From assembly GCA_013152385.1 (NCBI GenBank), contig JAADGL010000045.1, positions 1 to 64,000 on the forward strand: 64,000 nucleotides of DNA, written 5' to 3'. This DNA comes from Acidobacteriota bacterium. GTDB taxonomy: Bacteria > Acidobacteriota > Holophagae > Thermotomaculales > Thermotomaculaceae. Made by a program: the position numbers and the translations under genes. Shown in pieces: positions 18,505 to 25,277 of this stretch. Below the pieces are notes generated by a model. The model was given only the letters and a program-made list of their open reading frames with translations, did not search any database and had not been told where the DNA came from. How positions within the stretch are numbered: position 1 is the first letter of the stretch; the number at the start of each line of letters is the position of its first letter.

Positions 18505-19053
18505 ATGCGGAAGAAAGCGGAAGCACTGGTCGCGGCCTATGTCAAAAAGGACTCACTGAAGCGCCATTTATCTGCGGTGGAAGCGGCGATGGGATTTTAT
18601 GCCCGGAAGTTCGGGGAAGATGAGGAATATTGGCGGATAACCGGCCTGCTCCACGACTTTGACTACGAAAAATTTCCAGATCAACATCCTTTGAGAGGAA
18701 TGGAAATTCTGAAAACAGAAAACTTTCCGGATGAAATGATAGAGGCAATCGGAGGGCATGCGGATTATACCGGAATTCCAAGGACAACGCTTCTGGCAAA
18801 GACTCTTTACGCGGTGGACGAGCTGTCCGGATTTGTGATGGCGGTGGCATATGTACGTCCATCACACTTGCTGCGGGACGTGCCGGTCAAATCGGTTCGT
18901 AAAAAATTAAAGGACAAAGCATTTGCGCGGCAGGTGAATCGGGAAGAGATTATGAAGGGTGCGGAAGAGTTGGGCATAGAGATTTATGAACATATTCAAA
19001 ATGTAATAGATGCCCTGAAAATCAATGCGGAGAAATTGGGATTTTCGGGCTAA
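18505..19053 (+). CDS. HD-domain metal-dependent phosphohydrolase (HDIG type)
   Basis: A 182-residue single HD domain. Visible ligands are H21, the H50-D51 pair in L-L-H-D-F-D-Y, H61, H84 in G-G-H-A-D, and D107 in A-V-D-E-L-S-G, matching TIGR00277-type HDIG proteins. Family members hydrolyse phosphate esters, often of nucleotides, but the substrate is unknown. It follows tryptophanase after 13 bases with GGAGGAACC upstream, so the two are probably co-transcribed; a functional link is not evident. Confidence 0.8.
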   Translation: MRKKAEALVAAYVKKDSLKRHLSAVEAAMGFYARKFGEDEEYWRITGLLHDFDYEKFPDQHPLRGMEILKTENFPDEMIEAIGGHADYTGIPRTTLLAKTLYAVDELSGFVMAVAYVRPSHLLRDVPVKSVRKKLKDKAFARQVNREEIMKGAEELGIEIYEHIQNVIDALKINAEKLGFSG

Positions 19054-19165
19054 TGTCAGAAGCTGATTTGTTTGTGTACACAATTTAGGACAAAAAAAGA
19101 ACAATTTTAGCTATTCTGCCAAAAAAATGACAGGTAATCGGTGATTTTTTGTGAAATGTTGACAC

Positions 19166-19196
19166 TTACCCGGGTAAAATATCGTAACTACCGGTA
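19166..19196. promoter_or_regulatory. two palindromes just upstream of a sigma-54 promoter
   Basis: A perfect 12-bp palindrome TTACCCGGGTAA (19166-19177) and a perfect 8-bp palindrome TACCGGTA (19189-19196) share an ACC(C)GG(G)T core and lie 8-39 bases upstream of the -24 element. They could be binding sites for an activator or repressor. Confidence 0.4.
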
Positions 19197-19203
19197 TTTT
19201 CTC

Positions 19204-19221
19204 TTGGCATGTTACTTGCAT
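19204..19221 (+). promoter_or_regulatory. sigma-54 (RpoN) promoter
   Basis: TTGGCATGTTACTTGCAT matches the consensus TTGGCACG-N4-TTGCW at all but one base, with GG at 19206-19207 and GC at 19218-19219, exactly ten bases between. The expected start of transcription is about 19230-19232. No ORF of note lies downstream on this strand; dxs is on the opposite strand. Confidence 0.7.
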
Positions 19222-19229
19222 ATATAAGG

Positions 19230-19362
19230 GTGTAGAAAGAACTGACGGGGGAAGCCATAAAGATAGCCTATCACAAAAAACACCTTATTTGGCTTACCAA
19301 ACACTACCCATCAATGAAATCCTTCATAAAATTTCCCCCGTTTCTTTCTCTTTCTCTTGTTT
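19230..19362 (+). ncRNA. candidate sigma-54-driven small RNA
   Basis: Starting at the predicted +1, the strand folds plausibly: ACGGGGGAA (19245-19253) pairs with TTCCCCCGT (19333-19341) to close an 80-base interior that contains GATAG/CTATC (19262-19272), ATGAA/TTCAT (19314-19327), and an alternative AAGCCA/TGGCTT pair (19252-19257 with 19290-19295). A long pyrimidine tract (19341-19362) follows the closing stem, as in a loose terminator. The interior has an A-rich single-stranded stretch near 19273-19280. No family is recognised. The only ORF inside encodes 17 residues without a ribosome site. Confidence 0.45.
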
Positions 19363-19424
19363 CCTAAAACAAAAAATTAAAGAGTTGATAGCTGATTCTC
19401 TGTTTTCCTGAGCTGGTTTGCAGA

Positions 19425-21341
19425 TTATATTTCGGAATTCCAATTACCGTGTTTTCTTACGCTTTTATTTTCCAGGATAAATTCCCGAATCCGATAGAAA
19501 AGATGTGCTTCCGTTAGGCGAAGTTCATCCAGCAATTCTCCGGGTGTGCCGTGATGAACAATGACATCCGGAACCCCGATGCGCAGTACCGGGATTGTCC
19601 GGTGGTTTTGTTCCAGCAGTTCCAGAACGGCGGAGCCAAACCCTCCTGCCAGAGCATTTTCTTCACAGGTAATCAGGAGTCCGCAGGACTCTGCGGCGTC
19701 TAAAATTGCGCTTTCATCCAGCGGTTTGGCAAAGCGCGCATCAATTACATGTATGGAAAGCCCCTCTGACGCAAGGCGTTCCGCAACACGCTTTGCCTTC
19801 CATGCCATCGGGCCGATGGCAACGATAGCGGCATCTTCGCCTGTCCGCAGAACCCGGCTCTTTCCGATTGGGATTTCCCGGAGCAGTTCATCCGGCGGCA
19901 GCCCTTCACCGGTTCCTCTGGGATAGCGGATAGCGGCGGGCATGGAAAGCCCGGAAGCGGTAAAAAGCATGTGGCGCAATTCATTTTCATCTGCCGGTGC
20001 CATAATAATCAGATTTGGAATCGGGCGTAGGAAGCTCAGGTCATAGAGGCCGTGATGGGTTTCGCCGTCTGCTCCGACAATACCGGCACGGTCCAGGCAG
20101 AAGACAACCGGAAGGTTCATCAGACAGGTGTCATGAATTACCTGGTCGAAAGCCCGTTGGAGGAAAGTGGAGTAAATGGCAACAAAGGGTTTTTTGCCTG
20201 AAATTGCCATTCCTGCAGCAAATGTTACGGCATGCTGTTCGGCGATTCCGACATCGAAGAAACGATCGGGAAACTGTTTTCCAAAACTTTCAAGTCCGGT
20301 TCCGGACGGCATTGCGGCGGTAATCGCGGTAATTTTCTGGTCATTGCGGGCAAGTTGAATCAGTGTGTCTCCGAAAACAGCTGTAAAAGACGGTTCCCGT
20401 TTCGGTTTCCCCAGTGTCCTGCCGGTTGAAATCTCAAAAGGAGATGCGCCGTGCCATTTGTCCGGTGATTTTTCTGCAAATTTGTATCCTTTCCCTTTGA
20501 TGGTTTTCACGTGGATCAAAACCGGTCCGTCAATTTTTCGCGCTTTTTGTAAGGTGGATACCAGTTTGCCATAATCGTGGCCGTCCACCGGCCCGATATA
20601 GTGAAACCCCAACTCTTCAAACAGCATGCCTGGAACAAACATGCGTTTCAATGTGTCTTCCATTGCCTTCGCGATTTTAATAAAGGAATTACCGATACCG
20701 GGGACACTTTTCAGTACCGTTTCCACATGATCCCGCATCCGGTTGTAAAGTTTGCCGGAGAGAATCTGGTTTAAATACCCGCTCAATGCGCCGACATTGT
20801 GGGAAATGGACATTTCATTATCATTGAGAATCACGATCATTTTTTTCTTGACATGCCCGGCCTGGTTCATCGCTTCAAACGCGAGGCCTGCGGTCAGCGA
20901 TCCGTCTCCGATAAAAGCCAGGACATCATGGTCCAACCCGGCAAGATCTCTGGACACAGCCATCCCCAGTGCTGCCGAAATGGATGTGGATGAGTGGCCG
21001 GTGTTGAAATGATCGTAGGGGCTTTCGGTGATTTTCGGGAAACCGCTGATTCCGCCGAGCTGTCGCAATGTCTGGAAGTCCTTCATTCTGCCGGTGAGAA
21101 TTTTATGCGCGTATGCCTGATGACCGACATCCCATACAATCCGGTCTTTTGTAAAATCAAAAACAGTATGAAGCGCCAGTGTAATTTCCACAACACCGAG
21201 GCTGGAGGCCAGATGCCCGCCGGTATGGGAAACTGTTTCGATGATAAAGGCACGAATCTCTTTTGCAAGTTGCCGAACCTCATCTTCGGTCATGGCTGCC
21301 AGTTCCCGGGGGGTTAGAAGCGGGGTCAGGATCGGGTCCAT
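19425..21341 (-). CDS. dxs: 1-deoxy-D-xylulose-5-phosphate synthase
   Basis: Thiamine-diphosphate enzyme that joins pyruvate and glyceraldehyde 3-phosphate, the first step of the MEP isoprenoid pathway and a source of thiamine and pyridoxal precursors; 638 residues, normal length. Seen are H-T-G-G-H-L-A-S-S-L-G near 40-50, the thiamine motif G-D-G-S-L-T-A-G-x-A-x-E-A-M-N near 145-160 with I-L-N-D-N, and G-I-A-E-Q-H-A-V-T-F-A-A-G-M near 370. The ATG at 21341 has GGAGG seven bases upstream. It faces the plus-strand genes tail to tail across the sigma-54 region. Confidence 0.97.
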   Translation of the reverse strand: MDPILTPLLTPRELAAMTEDEVRQLAKEIRAFIIETVSHTGGHLASSLGVVEITLALHTVFDFTKDRIVWDVGHQAYAHKILTGRMKDFQTLRQLGGISGFPKITESPYDHFNTGHSSTSISAALGMAVSRDLAGLDHDVLAFIGDGSLTAGLAFEAMNQAGHVKKKMIVILNDNEMSISHNVGALSGYLNQILSGKLYNRMRDHVETVLKSVPGIGNSFIKIAKAMEDTLKRMFVPGMLFEELGFHYIGPVDGHDYGKLVSTLQKARKIDGPVLIHVKTIKGKGYKFAEKSPDKWHGASPFEISTGRTLGKPKREPSFTAVFGDTLIQLARNDQKITAITAAMPSGTGLESFGKQFPDRFFDVGIAEQHAVTFAAGMAISGKKPFVAIYSTFLQRAFDQVIHDTCLMNLPVVFCLDRAGIVGADGETHHGLYDLSFLRPIPNLIIMAPADENELRHMLFTASGLSMPAAIRYPRGTGEGLPPDELLREIPIGKSRVLRTGEDAAIVAIGPMAWKAKRVAERLASEGLSIHVIDARFAKPLDESAILDAAESCGLLITCEENALAGGFGSAVLELLEQNHRTIPVLRIGVPDVIVHHGTPGELLDELRLTEAHLFYRIREFILENKSVRKHGNWNSEI

Positions 21342-21828: not shown

Positions 21829-24800
21829 TCAATGGGCAGGTGTTTCAATCATCCAGATGCTGGTGCCGGGGGAGTTGTCCGGATCGCCGGGGCAGGATTC
21901 AAATACGATTTTTGTACCGTCCGGGGACCAGGATGGCGCCCCGTCATATCCATTGTTATTTGTTACCCGAAGAGGAGTTCCTCCTGAAACCGGTAGAATG
22001 TAGAGGTTTGCAAAATCCAACTCACCGTTGTCAGAGCTGTACACAATCCATTTTCCGTCCGGAGAAAATGAAGCATCGGTTTTATCACCGCTTCCCGATG
22101 TGACCATTCGGGGGTTGCTTCCGTCCGGTTTCATTACCCAAATGTCCCATTGCCCGCCGGAAAACCGCTGGTACAGGATCAGATCCCCTGCCGGAGACCA
22201 GTTGGGTTGGCGGCAGTCATCTGACACACCGGTCAGAGATTCATAAGAGCCGGTACCGTCAATTCTGTATGTTGTGATAATACCGTTTTCTTCCACGTCC
22301 TCTTTGTGGGACTCAAACACAAGCCATTGCCCGTCCGGTGACAGGCTGGGTTCATACGCCACATCAGCACTTCTATTGGTGATCCTGGTTTCCTGGCCGT
22401 TTATTGCGTTTTCTCCAATGCTGTAAATTTCATCGTGAGGTTCCCGGTCTGATGAGAATACAATTGTCTTAATGGTGGGATTCCAGGTGGAACCCGGAAG
22501 ATTGACATTGGTATTTCCATCTGACACAAGTGTTTTCAGGCAGCAGCTTTCCAGATCAAAAATAAAGAGATCGGCGGGCCCTTCGTTATAGTTGTTTCTG
22601 AACCGGGTAAAAAGGATTGATTTGCCGTCCGGTGACCAGGCCGGATTTTGTATACTGCCGCCGGCAACGGTCTCTATTTTGACTGCGCCGTCGGTCCGCC
22701 GTATCGTTTTGAACAGGATTGCGCCATGATTTTCCCAGAAAAGCTGGATTTCCCGTTCTGTTTTTTCATCCGGAAGATGAAAGCACTCCGTTATATTATT
22801 GTCGGATGTGTCTGTTAGATTAAATACTGCAGTATTGGAAATTTTGGCCAGAACTGCGCCGTTGGATTGCCACATTTCATTATCTGCTGTCCTGTTTCCA
22901 TTGGTCAGCAATGTCAGATAATTGTAAGCCTCATCTGTATTTATGGAATTTTGGCTGTTGCCGACCGTTATATTGTCCCGTCCCAGAATTTCTGCCAGTT
23001 CCAGGCGGGCGGATTCCCCGGATAAGATCGTGTAAGCGTTGGTAATTATGAGACTGGTTTCCGGGTTCCGGGTGATGGTCCAATCCGGCATTCTGTAAAT
23101 CCAGGTCCGGTCTATGCCTCCGGCGGAGGTTTTTATGCGGATTCCGATCCGGGATGTGCCATAGGGCGTGGTATTGTCATCCACGGTTGTTCCGGAACTG
23201 AAATCCACCCGGAACAGGTTTGCGGATAATTCCGGATGCGCTGTTCTGCTGAATGTTGCCAGTGTTCCTTTTACATTCCAGCTGTTGTCAAATGCGAGGA
23301 TGTCATAGCCTGTTATGCTGCCGGTGGTATCTCGCATTTCTATGATCAGATGGCTGAAAAGTGTGTCATTATCCTCTACTTCCAGGTTACGGGTTCCGGA
23401 CAGCGCCGGGATGTCCGTTGCTATGCCCCGTGTTTCATTGGCAATGAAGGGGTGGATTGTCAGGGGGGTTGTGTTTACGGTGTCTTCGCCGATCATCCAG
23501 CTATGGACCTCTTTTCCGTCCACAAGCTTCAATCCCCCCTGCAGGGCGTACATCATAATGTTCCGGTTGTCCGACAGCGGTGATTCTGAAACGGATCCGT
23601 AAACCGTCAGCTGTTTTACATCATCCCGAATTCCTTCCAGTCCGGCGCTGTTCAGCAGCGCTTCAATCGTTTCAGCATACTTGCTCATGGAAACAATTGT
23701 GACCACCTGTGTCCCCAGAACTGTTCCGGTTTCAGTTTGATACGACAGAACAATGTTTTGGTCCCGATTGCTGAAATTTGCAAATGCCAAACCGGTCCAG
23801 ATCCCTTCTGTGCCATCACTTGCATCTTTTGAATCTGCTAAAGGGATGTTGCAGCGCTGCCGGGGAGGATCCATTCCTGTGACACTGGACAGGTAACCGC
23901 CGGTATCCGGCAGCAGGAGTCCGACTCCGCCCATAATGGGCCAATCGGCACCGTTCGGCTCGCCACCGAACAGTTCTCCGCCCATAATCGGTTTTTCCGC
24001 CACTATCCGTGCAAACCCTGCTCCATCCGGCAACCCCAAGTTTTGAATCACATCCACCAGTTTGCCGAAAGCCGGTAACTGCCCGGTGGCATCATCAATG
24101 ACGGAAGTGGTTGTATTCACATCAAGATGAACGCCTTCCGGGCTGTAATACTGAATGACAAATTTTACTGTTTCCGAATTGGGATTATTCAGCACCAGGC
24201 CGGTCCACCAGTAATACCCGTCCGCTGCAATATGCGGCACAATCAGTTCCTCGAAAGCGGGGGGATTGCCGAAGGCTCCGCCGGATTCGCCGTTCACTTT
24301 CATAAACAGGGTGTTGTTTACCAGATTATTGACCGGTGCCGAGGTTTTCTGCTGAAACGATTCACTTTTCAATTTCATCCAGCCCGCATCCGCGGGAACA
24401 GTACCACCAAACATATCTTTCATGTTAAAACTGGCGCTGCCCCTGCTGCTGTCCAAGTCCGGCATTGTAAATCCATAGCTGTTGACAGTTCCGTCAAAGG
24501 CAAAATTTTCCAGCCGGGGATATACAACCGCACTGATATTGCAGTCTGTGTTATTTATGCGGGCGATGTTATCCAGAAAGGTCCAATATCCTGTGTTGTT
24601 TGTAAAATGAAGATTGTATACAGTAGCACTGCCGGCAATCGGTGCCGGCACCATTGCCCGCTGATCCCCCCTGCTGTACAGAACCCACACGTCCTTTCTG
24701 CTGCTGCTTGAAATTTCGACAAGGCCGATTGTTCCAGTATCCTCAATGGTGGGGAAAAGTGCTTTCAATGTTACGCGTAGCTGGTTCCCGTTCGCAACTT

Positions 24801-25086
24801 CGCCGGATCGGTTCGTACTGGCCAGCAGGGCTCCGTCTTTTCCATAGGCTTTGAAGATTGCCGTATTGTCTGAGGCCGGATTCAGAATACCGGTATTCAC
24901 CAGGATAATCTCACAATTATACCCATCCGGTGTCAGTACATAATTTCTGAAATCATCTCCGGTGAACCCGGGATGACATCCCAGAAAAATTTCCCAGATG
25001 AATACTACAAACAAAAACCCAGTATACCGAATGCCGGTTGTACTTCGCGGCAGTATACCTGCAGAAGATTTTTTCCGTTTTATCAA
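21829..25086 (-). CDS. large exported protein with C-terminal TolB-type propeller
   Basis: About 1085 residues. The N-terminus is basic, then a hydrophobic segment ending in F-L-G-C (possible lipobox near residue 38). Residues about 50-780 are beta-rich and contain repeats of a module with a W-T-G-L core (Y-W-W-T-G-L-V-L-N-N-P near 300; I-W-T-G-L-A-F-A-N near 435). Residues about 800-1085 carry six TolB/PD40 blades, each with W/L-S-P-D-G then I-V/L-F. The TTG at 25086 is preferred over the TTG at 25107 because GGAGGG lies six bases before it. The same module recurs in the proteins at 53-57 kb and 62-64 kb. Function unknown; extracellular binding is likely. Confidence 0.7.
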   Translation of the reverse strand: MIKRKKSSAGILPRSTTGIRYTGFLFVVFIWEIFLGCHPGFTGDDFRNYVLTPDGYNCEIILVNTGILNPASDNTAIFKAYGKDGALLASTNRSGEVANGNQLRVTLKALFPTIEDTGTIGLVEISSSSRKDVWVLYSRGDQRAMVPAPIAGSATVYNLHFTNNTGYWTFLDNIARINNTDCNISAVVYPRLENFAFDGTVNSYGFTMPDLDSSRGSASFNMKDMFGGTVPADAGWMKLKSESFQQKTSAPVNNLVNNTLFMKVNGESGGAFGNPPAFEELIVPHIAADGYYWWTGLVLNNPNSETVKFVIQYYSPEGVHLDVNTTTSVIDDATGQLPAFGKLVDVIQNLGLPDGAGFARIVAEKPIMGGELFGGEPNGADWPIMGGVGLLLPDTGGYLSSVTGMDPPRQRCNIPLADSKDASDGTEGIWTGLAFANFSNRDQNIVLSYQTETGTVLGTQVVTIVSMSKYAETIEALLNSAGLEGIRDDVKQLTVYGSVSESPLSDNRNIMMYALQGGLKLVDGKEVHSWMIGEDTVNTTPLTIHPFIANETRGIATDIPALSGTRNLEVEDNDTLFSHLIIEMRDTTGSITGYDILAFDNSWNVKGTLATFSRTAHPELSANLFRVDFSSGTTVDDNTTPYGTSRIGIRIKTSAGGIDRTWIYRMPDWTITRNPETSLIITNAYTILSGESARLELAEILGRDNITVGNSQNSINTDEAYNYLTLLTNGNRTADNEMWQSNGAVLAKISNTAVFNLTDTSDNNITECFHLPDEKTEREIQLFWENHGAILFKTIRRTDGAVKIETVAGGSIQNPAWSPDGKSILFTRFRNNYNEGPADLFIFDLESCCLKTLVSDGNTNVNLPGSTWNPTIKTIVFSSDREPHDEIYSIGENAINGQETRITNRSADVAYEPSLSPDGQWLVFESHKEDVEENGIITTYRIDGTGSYESLTGVSDDCRQPNWSPAGDLILYQRFSGGQWDIWVMKPDGSNPRMVTSGSGDKTDASFSPDGKWIVYSSDNGELDFANLYILPVSGGTPLRVTNNNGYDGAPSWSPDGTKIVFESCPGDPDNSPGTSIWMIETPAH

Positions 25087-25277
25087 AAATTTCCCTCCAT
25101 TTGTCAATCGGTTGTCTAATATCAGTTTATCACACTGAAGGAAAACAGATACAAAGACCGGTGCTTATCCATTTAAGCGCCCGGTCGGCAAGAGACGTTA
25201 CAAGTGAGGGGTATGACTTTGATTTTTCTCAATTTTTCCGGACAGGTCCGGTAGATTTAACCGCAGATGGTAATTTC

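Follow-up and report, generated by a model that had tools for sequence, protein, structure and literature searches.

Few small RNAs controlled by sigma-54 have been described, and to our knowledge those compared here (Qrr, GlmY, CrcZ and Pxr) all come from Pseudomonadota or myxobacteria. The Qrr1-4 RNAs of Vibrio depend on LuxO and sigma-54; their fold consists of several stem-loops and includes a canonical terminator. 6S RNA has a long closing helix about a large open region. CrcZ of Pseudomonas, which is RpoN-dependent, carries six A-rich stretches by which it titrates Hfq (PMC4063720). GlmY is also sigma-54-controlled and sequesters RapZ (PMC7073468). A literature search for sigma-54-controlled small RNAs in Acidobacteria or Holophagae found no relevant paper.

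Here we consider a locus in the window, the 64-kb stretch of acidobacterial DNA that was analysed. We put the probability that it specifies a sigma-54-dependent non-coding RNA at about 0.92, judging from sequence comparison. A sigma-54-driven small RNA had been proposed by a reading of the window alone (the sequence-only reading), and comparison supports that proposal strongly, through the promoter, the RNA body, the helix and eight homologs.

Several described systems come close to the predicted RNA. CrcZ/CrcY (CbrB/RpoN-dependent; PMC4063720) likewise have a sigma-54 promoter with an activator, are stand-alone non-coding RNAs and carry A-rich single-stranded stretches. CrcZ/CrcY, however, have 407 nt and six A-rich stretches, whereas the window RNA would have about 120 nt, one closing helix and one loop, and it has no sequence or Rfam match to them. 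GlmY of Enterobacteria (QseF/GlrR; PMC7073468) is similarly a stand-alone RNA under sigma-54 and an activator, but it is a decoy for RapZ and the window RNA has no sequence match to it. Pxr of Myxococcus (PMC5684412) shares a predicted sigma-54 promoter, an upstream enhancer region and restriction to a clade; it has three stem-loops, in contrast to the one long-range helix here, and there is no Rfam match. The Qrr RNAs are alike in standing alone, in dependence on sigma-54, in length and in probable use of Hfq, but the window RNA is a single long-range helix without an Rfam match. Finally, 6S RNA also encloses a large open region with a long helix. The window RNA, in contrast, would be sigma-54-driven, has an asymmetric, A/C-rich loop and does not match the Rfam 6S model.

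The locus lies between an HD-domain gene (18505-19053, +) and dxs (19425-21341, -), the latter convergent with the small RNA. Just upstream of the HD-domain gene is a gene for a beta-eliminating lyase of the tryptophanase/tyrosine phenol-lyase fold (PF01212; 17118-18491, +), which is syntenic in the genus. On the other side, a 1092-aa ORF (21829-25107, -) has C-terminal TolB/beta-propeller repeats resembling SPDGKWIVYSS.

The sigma-54 promoter and its setting

The promoter, TTGGCATGTTACTTGCAT, occupies 19204-19221 (+), with the -24 GG at 19206-19207 and the -12 GC at 19218-19219, exactly where the sequence-only reading had seen an RpoN-consensus box. It is the sole match in the window to the strict pattern TGGCAY-N5-TTGCW (0.1 expected under a Markov model). 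In the whole genome of the organism the strict pattern occurs 16 times, against 2 for a reversed control pattern. The box is retained in all three congeners examined (G001-G003, grouped here with the window species as genus g1) and beside the four homologs of the sister genus g2, at nearly the same distance from the RNA in both genera. As it is conserved in these eight species, a chance match can be rejected. Loss of the GG and GC elements in close relatives had been named beforehand as a result that would refute the proposal; no such loss occurred, and the box has 83% mean pairwise identity among the four g1 species.

From the positions of the GG and GC, the transcription start is expected at about 19231, and 19231-19232 is our predicted +1. 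Conservation restarts there (GTAG at 19232).

Two candidate activator (enhancer) sites stand out upstream in the four-species g1 alignment. Neither is assigned to a strand. Site 1, TCTGCCAAAAAAATGACAG (19115-19133), has the consensus TCGTCA-N6-TGACA, and its place about 100 nt upstream of the +1 suggests that it binds an activator. Site 2, GAAATNTTGACACT, is at 19153-19166. The TGACA words of the two are exactly 32 bp apart (three helical turns), and are conserved in g1; no equivalent of the pair was recognised in g2. GlrR sites have the form TGTC-N10-GACA, unlike the TCGTCA-N6-TGACA found here. Two palindromes had also been noticed just upstream of the box. Both are perfect, TTACCCGGGTAA at 19166-19177 and TACCGGTA at 19189-19196, and stand downstream of the conserved sites and ahead of the promoter, but the congeners lack them; they are therefore probably incidental, and we rejected them as regulator sites.

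Each of nine family genomes encodes one RpoN, activators with the PF00158 domain (bEBPs) are numerous, about a dozen being encoded, and hfq is present in the organism's own genome (E 4.7e-22). In G004, a g2 genome in a single contig, the strict box occurs 15 times. Although predicted genes cover 94% of that sequence, 14 of the boxes are intergenic; 12 of the 15 are directly upstream of genes, and the RNA homolog is among the others. The genes so led include those for a type IV pilin-like protein, LpxC, a phosphate-selective-porin-like protein, a PMT-type glycosyltransferase, a thiolase, a YHS protein and a radical SAM protein. Sigma-54 has been viewed as a controller of the cell exterior (PMC3162934). 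The recognisable genes of the G004 set tend towards the cell surface (pilin, LpxC, porin), which agrees with such a role more than with the nitrogen control that the sequence-only reading had offered beside stress control; the agreement is only suggestive.

Two other boxes of G004 deserve mention in their own right. One (G004:C1:1702485, +; locus L254) is a second strict box without a gene on its strand; within about 75 nt it has a hairpin-like stretch, CCGGGAC...GTCCCGG, and a T-run near a convergent purB-like gene. It may mark a very short small RNA or be a chance site. The other precedes lpxC (G004:C1:850316, +; locus L211), with its predicted +1 only 4 nt before the start codon. As lpxC is an essential lipid A gene, control by sigma-54 would be unusual.

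The RNA body, its fold and its relatives

The predicted small RNA gene spans 19231-19352 (+), as judged by conservation and covariance-model hits, and the transcript probably ends at about 19350-19360. Across the four g1 species the RNA body (19231-19350) has 92% mean pairwise identity. Identity falls to 35% from the box to the start, to 47% in the sequence farther upstream and to 34% downstream (34-52% on either side), and the flanking genes have 74-78% DNA identity. The element lies between the same two genes in all three congeners.

The 9-bp stem of the sequence-only reading, 19245-19253 with 19333-19341, pairs exactly. In our folding the inner closing helix is formed by CGGGGGAAG (19246-19254, +) and TTTCCCCCG (19332-19340, +). 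It is prolonged across a short bulge by an outer helix of 8 bp, AGAAAGAA (19234-19241, +) with TTCTTTCT (19342-19349, +), which is found in g1 only and is invariant in its four species. The bulge (19242-19245) has 33% identity in g1 vs 97-100% in the stem arms. Folded from the predicted start, the RNA has a z of -4.9, and none of 200 dinucleotide shuffles folded as well.

Enclosed by the helix is a loop of 77 nt (19255-19331, +), A/C-rich and G-poor (6% G). Homologous loops have 37-48% A, 25-29% C and 6-9% G. The loop is no more open than its base composition gives. The internal hairpins reported earlier are present, but they have little strength, and most of them are not shared by the two genera. 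The pyrimidine tract seen at the 3′ end is there as described, a pyrimidine/U-rich tail following the helix (19341-19360, +), and is a likely termination region.

The absence of a plus-strand gene after the box, also reported before, holds on comparison: the ORFs there are short and not conserved. The RNA has no conserved reading frame: from one species to the next its small ORFs change in frame, in start and in length, and no ribosome-binding sites were found ahead of them. No Rfam covariance model, those for Qrr, GlmY/GlmZ, CrcZ and 6S included where available, matched the RNA at or above its gathering cut-off; a match of the other strand to a plant microRNA was taken as chance.

We built a covariance model, R1, from the four g1 RNAs; among 93 genomes of the class it gave a weak match in G006 (E 0.21). 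At this g2 locus the spacing from the sigma-54 box (TGGCATAATTATTGCAG) to the RNA is unchanged, and the closing helix consists of different bases, GGGAGTGGG (the counterpart of CGGGGGAAG) with CCCACTCCC. A DNA search with the G006 locus found the same element in G004, G005 and G008, and no homolog in G007 (83% complete). On folding, all four g2 RNAs share the closing helix, after which comes a run rich in T (TNCTTTT or TATTTTT). The loops of both genera have in common the motifs CCATT-A, ACC, GCTYACCAA and CATCAAA. In the reverse direction, a model of g2 alone (R2) recovered the RNA of G002 in a search of that whole genome (E 3.4e-6, 41 bits); searched over 25 kb of loci, it recovered every one of the four g1 RNAs (E 3e-8 to 7e-6).

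The closing helix was found independently by folding in each genus. A lack of compensatory changes in the stem had been named as a result that would refute the proposal. Within g1 there are indeed none, the stem being invariant; between the genera there are. In the joint alignment four helix pairs have changed on both sides, and 100% of cells are paired vs 47-63% in slid controls; it should be noted that the g2 structure guided this alignment and that the double changes amount to a single contrast, that of one clade with the other. Inside either genus the helix does not vary, save for one-sided changes in the outer pairs.

Beyond the family the RNA was not recovered with confidence. R2 found nothing outside it in 396 genomes of the phylum, and searches of the 93 class genomes and of 24 diverse class genomes with looser filters gave no convincing homolog. 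The joint model (R3) scores weakly at one site in a different family of the class (G012:C26:112729-112863, +; 33 bits, E 2.5e-4), with no strict sigma-54 box at the expected place, the nearest being 660 nt upstream; the RNA family may be older still. The exact loop word was absent from viral contigs. Covariance-model matches without a sigma-54 box at the right distance (L093, L094, L096-L101) were treated as chance, and family-level DNA matches L005-L008 (E 1e-4 to 1e-3) were left out of the homolog set.

Mode of action and alternative readings

We suggest the following course of events. A sigma-54 complex at 19204-19221 would stay closed until a bEBP activator opened it, the two TGACA sites about 65-115 nt upstream being where that activator probably binds, and sigma-54 RNA polymerase would transcribe an RNA of about 120 nt rightwards from 19231/19232. 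A helix of 9 to 17 bp would close the RNA and hold out the A/C-rich, G-poor loop of about 80 nt, and the U-rich tail would end it. The helix would be frame, stabiliser and probable terminator, and the loop the working surface. The loop motifs GCYYACCAA and CAUCAAA would pair with purine-rich translation starts, probably with the help of Hfq, and translation of the mRNAs would be altered whenever the activator is on.

The assignment of the working surface follows from what evolution has kept: between genera the helix keeps its pairing and not its bases, and short words of the loop keep their bases. Since it is in the loop that sequence is conserved, we infer that the RNA works in trans. Hfq-aided pairing to purine-rich translation starts is the commonest mode for such RNAs; we place base-pairing first and a protein decoy second. 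The duplex energies of the loop against 2,095 start regions of G004 fell within the range of 19 shuffled loops, and a shared-seed target test on 308 ortholog pairs (18% of the organism's own genome) fell within its shuffles as well. As neither test gave a signal above its shuffles, the mode of action beyond transcription is one that we infer. We give base-pairing as the mode of action about an even chance, and we consider the whole explanation, a stand-alone sigma-54 small RNA gene acting in trans by pairing through its loop, to be rather likely.

A second reading is that sigma-54 induces the RNA as a decoy for Hfq or some other RNA-binding protein, the helix guarding the ends while the loop titrates the protein. 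The null result of the target tests, the A/C-rich loop with its repeated ACC/CAC and A-runs, the presence of Hfq in the organism and the precedents of CrcZ and GlmY (PMC4063720, PMC7073468) speak for this possibility. But the RNA is short, with one or two A-runs in place of six, and the length of the A-run varies between species while most of GCTTACCAAACACTACCCATCAA stays the same in g1, a pattern that suits sequence-specific pairing better. A decoy is possible, although we think it unlikely.

A 3′ antisense to dxs was the other suggestion of the sequence-only reading, and a regulator of dxs through convergent transcription is a related possibility. The RNA does converge on dxs in the window, and the arrangement is syntenic in all four g1 species. 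However, its conserved part stops about 75 nt short of the dxs stop codon, and the gap is not conserved (34% identity). In g2, moreover, the RNA is at another locus, beside a thioesterase-like gene and facing a 3-hydroxyacyl-CoA dehydrogenase-like gene (G004, G005 and G008) or a MauG-like peroxidase gene (G006), names that we read from translations. The link to dxs therefore appears to be positional, and comparison argues for independence from that gene; an antisense role is very improbable.

The unlinking from dxs weighs also against a minus-strand structure in the dxs 3′-UTR or a conserved DNA element such as a protein-binding inverted repeat. Being an inverted repeat, the arms would pair in a minus-strand RNA too. 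Yet the sigma-54 box is directional and at nearly the same distance in both genera, conservation restarts at the predicted +1, the loop is strand-asymmetric, and the U-rich tract is at the plus-strand 3′ end. We regard this reading, too, as having very little chance. Lastly, a transcript coding for a small protein is the least probable of all: TTG-started frames of 30-50 codons exist, but one-base indels shift the frame between species, starts differ or the frames carry a stop in the organism's own genome, and there is neither a Shine-Dalgarno sequence nor a third-position pattern.

Possible significance for sigma-54 control in the family

In closing, we return to the trans-acting small RNA as the preferred reading. 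The element appears to be a new, unannotated family of sigma-54-dependent small RNA, kept for long in two related genera. Tentatively, and with the odds against it, we propose that it stands for a class of "giant displayed loop" RNAs, in which a long-range helix of variable bases displays a G-poor loop of about 80 nt with conserved short C-rich words. Such RNAs would link the sigma-54 signal either to numerous translation starts or to a single RNA-binding protein. If true, this would be an early, possibly the first, sigma-54 small RNA outside Pseudomonadota and myxobacteria, in a lineage without a described small RNA. The family is testable, as comparison has set its promoter, start, fold and boundaries, a covariance model is ready and a single gene is concerned. 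The RNA could show how sigma-54 reaches beyond its approximately 15 direct promoters in these bacteria.
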